The translations under genes were made by a program, and so were the position numbers. From Sinorhizobium arboris LMG 14919 (GTDB taxonomy: Bacteria > Pseudomonadota > Alphaproteobacteria > Rhizobiales > Rhizobiaceae), in the NCBI RefSeq assembly GCF_000427465.1, contig NZ_KE386497.1, positions 693,014 to 757,013 on the forward strand: DNA of 64,000 nucleotides, in the 5' to 3' direction. Below are positions 5,973-24,082 of the stretch, one piece after another (within the stretch, counting starts at the first letter, position 1; each line of letters starts with the position of its first letter). Below the pieces are notes generated by a model, which searched no databases, was not told the DNA's origin, and worked only from the letters and a program-made list of their open reading frames with translations.

Positions 5973-7226
5973 TCAACGCTCCTTCAGCCTGACGCGATTG
6001 TTGTAGATGTTCATGGCGCCGGAGATCGTGAGGCTGATCGCGACATAGATCAGCATCATCATGAGCATGCCCTCGAGCTCGCGGCCGGTCTGGTTGATGG
6101 TGATGCCGCCGAGCGTGGAGCGCAGGTCCATGTAGCCGACGGCGAGGCCCAGCGAGGTGTTCTTGGTGATGTTGAGATATTGCGATATCAGCGGCGGAAC
6201 GATGATCCTGAGTGCCTGCGGCAGGATCACCAGACGCATGGTGCGGCCGGACGAGAGCCCCAGAGCGTGCGCGGCTTCCGATTGCCCGCGGGAGATCGCC
6301 AGAATGCCGGAGCGGACATTTTCGGCGATGAACGCGCCGGTATAGACACTGAGACCGATCCAGAGCGCGATGAAGGAATTGCGCAACTGCAGACCGCCTG
6401 TGAAGTTCAGGCCCTTCAGCGCGGGATAGTCGAGGTGAAAGCCGATCGCATAAAGCAGCACTACGACTGGCGCGATCAAGATGCACAAGCTCTTCCACCA
6501 GGTCACGGGTCGCTCGCCGGTCGCACTCTGGATCTGCTGCGCGTGCTTCAACAAAGCCCAACGTGCCAGAAGCGAAAGCGCGAGCACGGCGAGGATTGCC
6601 GCGTAGTTGAGGTCGAAGGATCCAAGGGCACCGGGCGCTTGGCCGAGGCTTCGTGAGAAATCCGGCACGGGCAGATAGATGCCGCGATTGGTAACGGCAA
6701 TACTGTCCCATAACAGCATGGAGGCCGTCGGGCTTTCGCCGCGAAACGCGTTCGGCGCCGGCATGGCCTCCGACATGACCGCAGCCACGACGATGATCCA
6801 GAGGAGCGTCGGGATGTTGCGGAAGCACTCGACATAGACCGTCATCAGCCGGGCAACGATCCAATTGTCGGAAAGCCGGAGAACGCCGGCGAGCACGCCG
6901 AGAAATGTGGCCATGACGCAAGCCATCGCTGCAACGATCAGCGTGTTGAGGAGGCCGACCAGGGCCGCGCGGCCATGGGTGCTCGTACTCGAATAGTCAA
7001 TAGCATGCGGTGCGATGTCGTACCCGGCCTTGCTCCACAGAAAGCTGAACGAGAAGTCTTTTCCGAGAGCCGCGAGATTGCGGATCGTGTTGTCGACGAG
7101 CCAGGCTGCGGAAAGAACGAGGATGCAAAATGCTATGACCTGGACTGTCCGGCCTCTGTAGCGGGCATCGTTGAAGAGCATGTTGAGGCGAAGCGGTTGG
7201 CGCGGAGCGCCGCTATTCGTGGCCAT
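5973..7226 (-). CDS. aapQ: Amino-acid ABC transporter permease, AapQ type
   Basis: A 417-aa permease subunit with the EAA-type loop (GQSEAAHALGLSSGRT, then LPQALRIIVPP) and multiple membrane spans. The ATG at 7226 (MATNSG) is preceded by AGGGAGA; the open frame to 7337 crosses the intercistronic hairpin and lacks a ribosome site. It follows aapJ after 112 bp and is coupled to aapM. Together with aapM and aapP it forms the membrane part of a general L-amino-acid importer. Confidence 0.9.
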   Translation of the reverse strand: MATNSGAPRQPLRLNMLFNDARYRGRTVQVIAFCILVLSAAWLVDNTIRNLAALGKDFSFSFLWSKAGYDIAPHAIDYSSTSTHGRAALVGLLNTLIVAAMACVMATFLGVLAGVLRLSDNWIVARLMTVYVECFRNIPTLLWIIVVAAVMSEAMPAPNAFRGESPTASMLLWDSIAVTNRGIYLPVPDFSRSLGQAPGALGSFDLNYAAILAVLALSLLARWALLKHAQQIQSATGERPVTWWKSLCILIAPVVVLLYAIGFHLDYPALKGLNFTGGLQLRNSFIALWIGLSVYTGAFIAENVRSGILAISRGQSEAAHALGLSSGRTMRLVILPQALRIIVPPLISQYLNITKNTSLGLAVGYMDLRSTLGGITINQTGRELEGMLMMMLIYVAISLTISGAMNIYNNRVRLKER

Positions 7227-20799: not shown

Positions 20800-22626
20800 T
20801 CAGTCGCTCCCAGCTACTTGCCTGTCCCAGAGCTCACGATAGAGAGTGCTGGACTCGAGCAGACTCTCGTGGCTACCGATTGCCGAGACACGCCCTGCCT
20901 CCAAAAGAACAATTTTGTCAAAGCCACGCACTGTGGAAAGACGATGAGCAATCGCGATCACGGTTGCTTCCCTAGAGTAGGAAGCGATCGCGTCCTGAAC
21001 GACGCTTTCGCTTTTTGAATCGAGAGCGGACGTGGCTTCGTCGAGGATTAGGACTGGCCGCCTTCGCAGAAAAGCACGTGCCAACAAGATCCGTTGTTGT
21101 TGTCCCCCGGACAGCTTTGCGCCACGGTCACCAACTATAGTGTCGTAGCCGTTTTCGAGATTCAAACTCTCGATGAATGCGTGCGCGTCCGCCATTCTCG
21201 CCGCACTAACGATTTGTTCGTCGTCGGTGCGTTCGGCGGCAAACGCGATGTTATCTCGAATGGATCGGTGAAACAGCGCATCGCTTTGGGAAACGACGGC
21301 GAAGTTCCTTCTCAGGGTTCCGACGGGAAGGGACTTGATGTCGACCCCGTCAAAGGTGATCACGCCCGCCGTCACATCGTAGAGACGAAGCAACAAATCA
21401 ATGAGTGTAGACTTGCCGGCACCCGACGGACCGACAATGCCAACCCGCTCGCCTGGTTGAATCTCAAGCGTAACGTTCCTGAGAATAGCTCGCGCAGGGT
21501 CGTAGCCAAAGCCGACTTGGTCGAATTTGATGAGAGGAACTTTGGCAATTGGCGCATCGGAGCCGCAAGGCGCGGACGTCTGCGATCCGGCGCTTATGGT
21601 CGATCGAGCGTCGCCGATCGTTCCGAGGGTCTGTGTCAAACCCTCCCAAATCGACACGAACCATCCGGCATCCGCTGCCATGCCACCCGCCAGCGTCACC
21701 GCAGCAACGAACTCGCCCGGCGTAACACTCTGGGCATTCAGGCCGTAGAGACCCAACAACAGGACCGCCGCCATGAGTCCCGTATTCAGGAGGCGGATGG
21801 AAAGGCCGGTGAACGTAGTCAGCCGATTGATCCTCAGGCTGTTGCTGTTCTGCCGTTCGATCGCGCCCAGAACTAGGGCATTTTCCTCTTCGTGGGCAAA
21901 GGAGGTTTTTATCGCGCGAATGTTCGAGAAGAACTCTGTGATGGAACCATTGACGATGCTCGCTGTCTCCGAGATCTTTCGCGCCTGCGAATTTACCTTC
22001 GGTGCAAGCCACACAGCGAAGACACCATTCAATGCGATCCACGCCAGAACGGGCACGACGAAGATCGGCGCCAGGTAAAGGATCAGGGCGGCCGACCCGA
22101 TAAACCGTATCAGGCCAATCGGAAATCGCCCGGCCAACAGCTCCGCGCCTGATTGTACCGCAGTTGAAACTTGGGCGATGCGTCCGGCAACCTGGCCGGC
22201 ATGGACGCTGTTGAAGTACATCATCTCGTGGCGTCCCGCTGCCCGGTGAGACTGCCACAAAGAAGAGGCCTTCGTTTGACTTTTCAGCGCCTGCATACGC
22301 AGAGCGTAGTTCACGAACCAGACAGCCGGATCGAGCAGGGCGTAGGCAAGAACGAGGAGGGCGAAGGTCAGCAGGGTTTCGGCCGATAGCCGAAGATCCC
22401 CGGAGTAAGTGACGACGTCGACAAGGTGTGCAATCGCCCAAAGCCGGGCAAGATCAAACGTTGTCAGGAGCATTCCGCTGGCAACGGATGCGGCAATCGT
22501 CCAACGAAACGGTCTCAGGAAGCGCAGCAGAACCTGAAAGGCGCCCGCATCGACGGGCAAGTACAAATCATGCTCTCGAATCGAGATGAGGTTTTCGAAC
22601 TTCTTAAATACCCTATCAAGCATCAA
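20800..22626 (-). CDS. ABC exporter, fused membrane and ATPase domains (candidate RiPP exporter)
   Basis: A 608-aa half-transporter. The N-terminal domain has about six transmembrane helices (residues 35-320); the C-terminal ATPase shows Walker [24 protein letters not shown], Walker B LILDEATSALD and the switch His in AIAHRLST. There is no C39 peptidase domain, so any leader removal must be done by another protease. It starts 9 bp after the dioxygenase gene, in the operon peptide-dioxygenase-exporter. Exporters of this type carry peptides, lipids or drugs; the context favours the small peptide. Confidence 0.88.
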   Translation of the reverse strand: MMLDRVFKKFENLISIREHDLYLPVDAGAFQVLLRFLRPFRWTIAASVASGMLLTTFDLARLWAIAHLVDVVTYSGDLRLSAETLLTFALLVLAYALLDPAVWFVNYALRMQALKSQTKASSLWQSHRAAGRHEMMYFNSVHAGQVAGRIAQVSTAVQSGAELLAGRFPIGLIRFIGSAALILYLAPIFVVPVLAWIALNGVFAVWLAPKVNSQARKISETASIVNGSITEFFSNIRAIKTSFAHEEENALVLGAIERQNSNSLRINRLTTFTGLSIRLLNTGLMAAVLLLGLYGLNAQSVTPGEFVAAVTLAGGMAADAGWFVSIWEGLTQTLGTIGDARSTISAGSQTSAPCGSDAPIAKVPLIKFDQVGFGYDPARAILRNVTLEIQPGERVGIVGPSGAGKSTLIDLLLRLYDVTAGVITFDGVDIKSLPVGTLRRNFAVVSQSDALFHRSIRDNIAFAAERTDDEQIVSAARMADAHAFIESLNLENGYDTIVGDRGAKLSGGQQQRILLARAFLRRRPVLILDEATSALDSKSESVVQDAIASYSREATVIAIAHRLSTVRGFDKIVLLEAGRVSAIGSHESLLESSTLYRELWDRQVAGSD

Positions 22627-22635
22627 TCGCTTCGC

Positions 22636-23622
22636 CTAGTTTGCGAGGATTTCTCCCATAACCCGCCCGGATAGGGAAGCGCTCCGCAGATAGCATCGGG
22701 TGACCGACGCCTCTTTGAATGGCTCTTCGAAAACATCGCGCGCGTGGAAACCGGCGGCGTTGTTGAGAATGATCATTCTCCGCGATTCCTGAGGCACAGC
22801 ATAGCGAAAAGGGTTGTTTGCGATTGCTTGCTGAAATTCTGCCAAGCGACGAGTTGCGCTTCCCCCAGTGTCCGATTCCCGTCCAAGGAAAGTGCCATTC
22901 ATGAAAGTCACGACACGCCCATACTCGTCCTCTTGGAAAACCGAGGTTCTTGCACGGTGTGGAGATATGAATTTTACCCCGGATTCGCTGTTGCTGTAGA
23001 CCGATGGGGTCAGGTCGAAAAGATAATCATTGTTGCAGCCGAGGTTGCTGACATAACCGTGCATGGAGGGAATAGACGTGGAGGGGACCCAATAGAAATT
23101 TCCTCTTTTCGCGTAATTGATGAAGACGTTGTAGAGCGCTATGTGATCCGGCACAGCCAGCGTATTGCCCCGGATCGTTCCGTCTGAATGAAATTCCAGA
23201 ACGTCAACTGGAGATATGTTTTTGATGCCGAGCTCATTCAGAGCGGCATTGTTCTCTTCTGACGCGTTGAACATGGAGAACGGGGTTCTGTTCTCTCGGT
23301 CGAGGACACTCGGCATGATGTGTTGCGAAATGGACAAAGCGACCAGGGCACCGGTTATGGCATCCTTGGTCACGTCCTCGTAAATGACGGGAACGTCTAT
23401 GGCAGCTATGCCAACGTCGGCATTGGATATCTCCGTTCTAATCCGCCTGATCTCCTCAAAAAAGACCTCTCCCGCCAGGGCGCTCAATCTAGCAACCAGA
23501 TTGGCGTCGCTCGTCGCCACAAGAGGTATCGGCGAGTCGTTTTCCAGGAGAGTGGTTTCACAAAACTCCCTGACTGCGTTCTCATCTAGGGTAACAATTG
23601 GCGCGGCGTCAAAAGCTGGCAT
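22636..23622 (-). CDS. Fe(II)/2-oxoglutarate dioxygenase, TauD/clavaminate-synthase-like (candidate RiPP-modifying)
   Basis: The 328-aa protein has the 2-His-1-carboxylate pattern of clavaminate-synthase-like oxygenases: H145-x-D147 in LEFHSDG, a distal His (about H293) in NNAAGFHARDVFEEP, and an Arg for 2-oxoglutarate (about R309) in TRCYLRS. The ATG at 23622 is chosen because the longer frame reads back through the upstream peptide gene. It lies 67 bp behind a 58-aa glycine-rich peptide gene and directly before an ABC exporter, so peptide hydroxylation or desaturation is the obvious hypothesis. Family assignment is by motif only. Confidence 0.75.
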   Translation of the reverse strand: MPAFDAAPIVTLDENAVREFCETTLLENDSPIPLVATSDANLVARLSALAGEVFFEEIRRIRTEISNADVGIAAIDVPVIYEDVTKDAITGALVALSISQHIMPSVLDRENRTPFSMFNASEENNAALNELGIKNISPVDVLEFHSDGTIRGNTLAVPDHIALYNVFINYAKRGNFYWVPSTSIPSMHGYVSNLGCNNDYLFDLTPSVYSNSESGVKFISPHRARTSVFQEDEYGRVVTFMNGTFLGRESDTGGSATRRLAEFQQAIANNPFRYAVPQESRRMIILNNAAGFHARDVFEEPFKEASVTRCYLRSASLSGRVMGEILAN

Positions 23623-23689
23623 ATCCCTGGTTTCCTCAACTCTGGCAACGAACAAGGGGCGCGCAGCGCCCCTTGGATTGGCACGTCGA

Positions 23690-23866
23690 TCAGGCGTTAG
23701 CGGGCTTGACCCCGCCACGGCTCCAGCCGCCGCCGATACCGCCGCCGCCACCCACATCATGACCACCATCCGTGCATTCCGGGCGCGTCAGCCCAACCGA
23801 CAGGCCTTGCGCAAAGGTCTCCATTACAACAGTCTTGGCGGCATCAGTTTTCGTGGCCTCGTTCAT
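23690..23866 (-). CDS. 58-aa glycine-rich peptide, candidate RiPP precursor
   Basis: The peptide has a charged, helix-prone N-terminal half without Cys (MNEATKTDAAKTVVMETF), like a leader. Its core-like C-terminal half has Cys31, two Gly-Gly pairs and a glycine run at residues 39-47 broken by Ile44, followed by Trp48 and a basic end. An AAGAAGGA ribosome site precedes the ATG at 23866 with normal spacing. The longer in-frame ORF to 23998 is rejected because it crosses the promoter-like AT-rich region. It is the first gene of an operon with a 2-oxoglutarate dioxygenase and an ABC exporter. I do not recognise the peptide family. Confidence 0.7.
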   Translation of the reverse strand: MNEATKTDAAKTVVMETFAQGLSVGLTRPECTDGGHDVGGGGGIGGGWSRGGVKPANA

Positions 23867-24029: not shown

Positions 24030-24082
24030 GCTGGTTATCTATTGTAATAAGCTGGTTATCTATTGTAATAATTTTGTAATAA
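24030..24082. repeat. Perfect 21-bp tandem direct repeat upstream of the peptide operon
   Basis: The 21-bp unit beginning GCTGGTTATC and ending TGTAATAA occurs twice without gap (24030-24050, 24051-24071), followed by a partial third end (TTTTGTAATAA). A 21-bp period is two helical turns, so both copies face the same side of the DNA, as in sites for response regulators. It lies between the peptide operon (minus) and the yhaO-like gene (plus) in an unusually AT-rich stretch. Confidence 0.7.

Follow-up and report, generated by a model that had tools for sequence, protein, structure and literature searches.

The window analysed here, a stretch of 64,000 nucleotides from the Sinorhizobium arboris LMG 14919 genome (6.85 Mb in seven contigs), carries on its minus strand three tightly packed genes coding for a short peptide, a putative Fe(II)/2-oxoglutarate (2OG) oxygenase and an ATP-binding cassette (ABC) protein (Table 1). 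An original prediction, made from the letters of the DNA, had proposed that these genes form a new system for a ribosomally synthesised and post-translationally modified peptide (RiPP). When the open reading frames (ORFs) were checked, the three genes, their sizes and the residues that had been singled out (Cys31, Gly39-47 broken by Ile44, and Trp48 in the peptide; H145-x-D147, H293 and R309 in the oxygenase) were all found where it had placed them. The intergenic gaps are 67 nt between the peptide and oxygenase genes and 9 nt between the oxygenase and ABC genes. A region of 14,984 bases spanning the locus is identical, letter for letter, to DNA of Sinorhizobium kostiense DSM 13372 (L002), and L002 is treated as the window's own locus in the counts below.

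Table 1. Coordinates of the predicted features of the locus, in positions of the window.
Feature	Position	Strand	Comment
Precursor peptide gene, 58 aa	23690..23866	-	Leader-like residues 1-25; LTRPECTD box residues 26-33; variable Gly-rich tail 34-58
LTRPECTD box codons, including Cys31	23768..23791	-	Conserved part of the peptide gene
Hairpin, 10-bp GC-rich stem, attenuator-like	23653..23675	-	Between the peptide and oxygenase genes; counterpart in most related loci
Fe(II)/2OG oxygenase, 328 aa	22636..23622	-	HxD...H...R; GlaH/clavaminate-synthase-like fold
Dedicated exporter, ABC membrane domain and ATPase, 608 aa (607 if the ATG 3 nt further on is used)	20800..22626	-	No C39 peptidase
21-bp repeat, two head-to-tail copies, overlapping promoter-like hexamers	24030..24071	-	Upstream of the peptide gene; possible control region

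Related loci and a conserved cysteine box

A protein search for relatives of the oxygenase returned 30 proteins at E<=0.001 (3,945 candidates scored, ca. 5.8 billion sequences), and a second search with alignment A2 returned 24. Scans of genomes and plasmids yielded 19 loci, 15 on genome contigs (the window's own locus included) and four on plasmids, that span Rhizobiales, Rhodobacterales and a single cyanobacterial plasmid. The original prediction had staked itself on homologous peptides lying beside oxygenase homologues in other genomes, and such peptides were indeed present, in Rhizobiales and beyond: an intact short ORF on the same strand is located just upstream of the oxygenase gene in 18 of the 19 loci, while in the remaining one (L016) both peptide and enzyme are broken.

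The window peptide has no family match in Pfam or NCBIfam; used as the query of a protein search, it retrieved no more than three close relatives. An intact ORF containing the motif LTRPECTD precedes the enzyme gene in ten loci (L002, L003, L004, L005, L006, L007, L012, L014, L015 and L022). The corresponding box reads SPECTD or APECTD in the Rhodobacterales loci L013 and L023, QPECND in R. lusitanum (L025) and SPECS in Calothrix (L024), and in four loci of the Ochrobactrum/Brucella group (L008-L011) the sequence AFEDVLKG(L/I)S is followed by DCPGF or a variant of it. The peptides of L008-L011 and L024, missed by the first motif search, were picked by position and leader likeness. Cysteine is the only residue common to all 18 intact peptides, 16 of which contain exactly one; PEC is present in 14 and PEC(T/N)D in 13. 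A leader-like motif, hydrophobic-x-x-L/F-x-K/Q-G-L-S, is likewise kept, while ORF length and tail vary freely. The stretch that contains it presumably serves as a leader. In the 11 LTRPECTD peptides (the ten loci plus an extra copy, L042), the box codons vary once at the first position, never at the second and eight times at the third, which argues that selection acts on the encoded protein. The peptide ORF is a genuine gene. All four plasmid records already list it, under the name "hypothetical protein". On one plasmid, a PLSDB resistance call ("vatH, 100%") falls exactly on the 40-aa precursor gene (L022:6778-6900) and is almost surely an artefact.

The original prediction had put forward a Gly/Trp core. 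As the modified part, this did not hold: Trp occurs in two of the 18 peptides, Gly makes up 40% or more of the tail in five, and none of the 13 peptides with less Gly in the tail contains Trp; moreover, three LTRPECTD peptides stop six residues past the Cys. The Gly run and Trp are best regarded as a lineage-specific tail, the shared part being the LTRPECTD/Cys box. A Tyr past residue 20 is found in four of the 18 peptides; the window peptide has no Tyr.

A search with the DNA pattern of the box served as a test independent of the enzyme. Four sites were found in three of 374 family genomes, all three of which encode a full-length oxygenase, and three of the four sites adjoin the enzyme gene; the backward control matched none of the 374. 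G189 and G246, the two genomes of the sample whose peptides are of the DCPGF type, lack the LTRPECTD DNA pattern, as expected. A second LTRPECTD peptide (L042:1429-1575) is encoded in one of the three genomes with the pattern, from the Ochrobactrum group, on a contig of 8.9 kb. It is preceded (L046:3578-8668) by a C39-ABC gene, a HlyD-looking ORF and an 830-aa ORF (the latter two named without a domain scan). Further on, close to the contig end, lie a DUF1254 piece and another that resembles a fatty-acid hydroxylase below threshold. In L011, an extra degenerate precursor-like ORF (6478-6663) lies upstream of the first.

As can be seen from genome samples, the distribution is sparse. The oxygenase was found in five of 394 family genomes, the own genome included; in the own genome and as one 26-residue match (G753) among 397 genomes of the order; and in the own genome alone among 385 of the class. 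In the genus of the Ochrobactrum/Brucella group it was present in eight of 35 genomes, of which three gave nothing but broken or fragmentary matches, and in the own genus in four of 33, namely the own genome, DSM 13372, E. aridi and a genome with a 32-residue fragment (G1188). An own-genus oxygenase remnant of 34 residues (L050:6392-6493) is 50% identical; nothing else in the DNA of its genome resembles the window region at the search cut-off, and G1188 gave no peptide match at E<=1. In a further genome of the Ochrobactrum/Brucella group (L034, G1154), 37 residues match the end of the oxygenase profile. The short matches in G753, G1154 and G1188 were kept out of the 19 loci. Repeated plasmid queries found no loci beyond the four records. 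A phage origin was rejected, there being no relative among viral contigs at the sensitivity of the search. In Brucella pituitosa and B. tritici (L014, L015 and L016) the locus is decaying, with the enzyme and exporter genes broken or shortened.

The oxygenase and the exporters

The only Pfam match of the window oxygenase at E<=1 is to TauD (PF02668), with 12.4 bits, below the gathering cut-off of 27. A TauD match at E<=1 was found in four of 31 family members (best E 0.0049). MNIO (DUF692) gave no Pfam match for the oxygenase at E<=1, and an HExxH motif is absent, since there is no HE pair in the 328 residues. H145 and D147 are present in 23 of 23 rows of alignment A2, and 22 rows also have H293 and an R309 whose match is meaningful; in the shortened row of L025, the Arg lines up by accident. 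Where named in the sources, the enzymes are called "hypothetical protein" or "TauD/TfdA-like domain-containing"; the peptide/oxygenase system thus escapes profile-based annotation.

The structure model of the enzyme has the double-stranded beta-helix of 2OG oxygenases. The original prediction of a clavaminate-synthase-like enzyme stands as to the fold and the HxD...H...R residues, but the nearest structure is glutarate hydroxylase GlaH/CsiD, which scores higher by fold than clavaminate synthase, the second. VioC, AsnO and KDO1 are also among the fold neighbours; the comparison covers Foldseek's top 1000 chains, and other families may lie beyond these. Neither GlaH/CsiD nor clavaminate synthase was found by sequence among solved structures at E<=10. 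In a tree of 15 loci and 10 proteins (L014, L015, L016 and L025 were excluded as broken), the DCPGF-type enzymes group together with full support; their clade arises on a branch of 0.61 from within the LTRPECTD enzymes. The MFS (major facilitator superfamily)-linked LTRPECTD enzymes form one clade and the Rhodobacterales enzymes another, while the placement of the Calothrix enzyme, on a long branch, is unsure.

The Pfam matches of the window ABC protein comprise membrane and ATPase domains and no Peptidase_C39, in agreement with the predicted exporter lacking a peptidase domain; Peptidase_C39 is also absent from the ABC proteins of L004, L005 and L012 and present in that of L025. A peptidase-less ABC exporter gene follows the enzyme gene in L002, L003 (assigned by 98% identity), L004, L005 and L012; its counterpart in L014-L016 is broken. 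Full-length ABC exporters are 54-63% identical across genera (98% between S. kostiense and E. aridi). The best-scoring of the own genome's other ABC proteins is 34% identical, and none of those listed exceeds 39%. We regard the window ABC protein as a dedicated exporter. As a fixed member of the gene set, the ABC exporter did not survive comparison: elsewhere an MFS pump, a C39-ABC protein with HlyD or no recognised exporter is found, and the exporter type thus differs while the enzyme stays, in loci that were found through the enzyme. An MFS pump gene follows the enzyme gene in L006, L007 and L022. In L013 and L023 it lies upstream, and only there is an M24 (X-Pro type) peptidase a neighbour (Pfam scans were made for L022, L013 (MFS) and L023 (M24); the other pumps and peptidase were assigned by clustering or record annotation). 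No exporter is annotated beside the Calothrix enzyme. The R. lusitanum plasmid (L025:6521-14568) encodes a PEC peptide, a broken oxygenase, a radical SAM protein, HlyD and a C39-ABC protein, as well as a 528-aa protein without a Pfam match; a double-glycine-like site and a C39 domain occur together in this locus only. The tail after the Cys is 16-39 residues long in loci with an intact ABC exporter and 6-11 residues in those with an MFS pump (a correlation over ten related loci), and since tail length tracks pump type, the products of the MFS group may be small. Tails are likewise short (6-7 residues) in loci without a recognised exporter.

Substrate and site of modification

The association of precursor, 2OG oxygenase and exporter into one unit is well supported, and the locus encodes what a RiPP starts from, a short precursor whose leader-like and core-like parts are conserved. 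We consider it likely that the peptide and the enzyme work together, and the locus probably represents a new RiPP family, whose Cys-centred box would be oxidised by a stand-alone 2OG oxygenase and then exported with the peptide. From these data we infer that the peptide is the substrate, and we propose the following site, chemistry, trimming, secretion and role. The stand-alone oxygenase would bind the N-terminal recognition motif of the precursor and oxidise the LTRPECTD box, most likely at or beside the invariant Cys, by C-H oxidation, desaturation or formation of a sulfur bond; after trimming, the modified peptide would leave the cell through the dedicated ABC protein. Hydroxylation or desaturation, as originally envisaged, would fit within this scheme. 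That the Cys itself is chemically changed we propose with some reserve. Equally tentative is the broader notion of a new RiPP class, where a mononuclear oxygenase of the GlaH/clavaminate-synthase fold would directly oxidise the invariant Cys of LTRPECTD/DCPGF-like boxes, giving short oxidised-Cys peptides whose size would be set by the tail and exporter type (long with ABC, short with MFS). Since the loci are patchy, partly plasmid-borne and decaying, our guess is that the product is a competition (bacteriocin-like) peptide rather than a housekeeping one.

Several observations weigh against this interpretation. The enzymes closest in fold have free small molecules as substrates, and the peptide product and enzyme activity are so far predictions from sequence. 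The loci were gathered via the enzyme, so a peptide beside the enzyme is partly built into the sample. Among the precursor assignments, that of Calothrix is weak and the least sure. No oxygenase is found among the ORFs listed on the 8.9-kb contig with the second LTRPECTD peptide; in R. lusitanum the enzyme gene is broken and the ABC protein shares only 28-37% identity with those of other loci; no exporter was recognised beside the DCPGF-type enzymes of L008-L011, where some neighbouring ORFs were unscanned; and no protease gene is seen in the window's gene set.

A serious, if not favoured, possibility is that the peptide is the substrate and the oxygenase targets Asp, Thr or Glu of the box (yielding, for example, beta-hydroxy-Asp), the Cys serving in recognition, a disulfide or metal binding. 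The available part of one source describes RiPP alpha-ketoglutarate (alphaKG) enzymes as largely limited to hydroxylation (PMC12636437), another reports an Asp beta-hydroxylase, CanE (PMC9266682), GlaH itself hydroxylates a diacid, and PEC(T/N)D prevails among the peptides. However, the four DCPGF-type peptides lack Thr and Asp after the Cys and only two have an acidic residue before it; the Cys is kept, and the three DCPGF-type enzymes in A2 retain the HxD, His and Arg.

The short ORF could also be a regulatory leader acting by attenuation or ribosome arrest, with the oxygenase modifying a free amino acid or small acid and the exporter secreting it. This would suit the MFS pumps, which are appropriate to small molecules, the free substrates of VioC, AsnO, KDO1 and GlaH (judging in part by entry titles) and the hairpin found after the ORF. 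In 13 of 18 loci, none of 500 shuffles equalled the perfect stem found in the first 110 nt (or less) past the peptide stop; in L015 a single one did. Stems in L008, L025, L007 and L024 were not clearly outstanding (10, 21, 148 and 375 of 500 shuffles as good, respectively). Total folding energy gave a weaker signal, with 0 to 32 of 200 shuffles folding at least as well (4 for L002, 32 for L003), over stretches that reach the start of the tblastn match and contain some enzyme codons. The hairpin may be a part-terminator giving more precursor than enzyme; it could also fit an attenuator. Promoter-like sites near the 21-bp repeats are a weak signal (3 found versus 1.8 +/- 1.4 in shuffles), and E. 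aridi has one similar copy of the repeat. Nevertheless, we consider a regulatory leader unlikely: the eight-residue box and the leader motif are kept through synonymous change in ORFs of varying length and tail, the second LTRPECTD peptide sits apart from any oxygenase, and R. lusitanum combines a double-glycine-like site with a C39 exporter. An unmodified small bacteriocin beside an unrelated enzyme, which the small peptide and patchy spread would allow, is very improbable given the box sites that adjoin the enzyme gene and, in loci found through the enzyme, the switching of exporters around a constant enzyme.

Comparison with known systems

The gene set has no matching system among the literature matches listed; these lie largely outside the subscription literature, where an earlier description may exist. 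If our preferred reading of a peptide oxidised at its Cys-centred box is true, the locus provides a minimal pair of peptide and 2OG enzyme, and the divergence of the boxes a natural set of variants, making sequence-to-chemistry rules of peptide oxidation directly testable. 2OG oxygenases are versatile oxidation catalysts. GlaH/CsiD and clavaminate synthase share the fold and HxD...H...R with the window enzyme (ca. 19% and 12-14% identity, respectively, over the aligned part) but act on free small substrates, and we know of no peptide partner for either. The closest precedent is an alphaKG-dependent dioxygenase that reportedly crosslinks Cys to Tyr in a RiPP precursor (Xia et al. 2025, doi 10.1021/jacs.5c07332). 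Compared by description only, the two systems are alike in the alphaKG enzyme, the RiPP precursor and the Cys, whereas the window peptide has no Tyr to be crosslinked.

According to the accessible portion of PMC12636437, 2OG oxygenases are rare in RiPPs and largely carry out hydroxylation. The alphaKG-HExxH peptide oxygenases PflC, PosC and PesO act on RiPP precursors with iron and alphaKG (PMC12636437, PMC13060819, as far as the excerpts go); they hold iron via HExxH in a zincin-like fold, in contrast to the HxD...H and GlaH/clavaminate-synthase-like fold of the window enzyme. CorC of corallotide is, in the excerpt available, also a 2OG-Fe(II) oxygenase, but of a different Pfam family (PF13640), and hydroxylates only once the graspetide linkage is made (PMC13097080). 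CanE, which hydroxylates Asp in the lasso peptide canucin, acts on the linear precursor (PMC9266682, from the part available); it resembles the window enzyme in its use of Fe and 2OG and is accompanied by lasso machinery, whereas in the window's set the oxygenase is the only recognised modifying enzyme.
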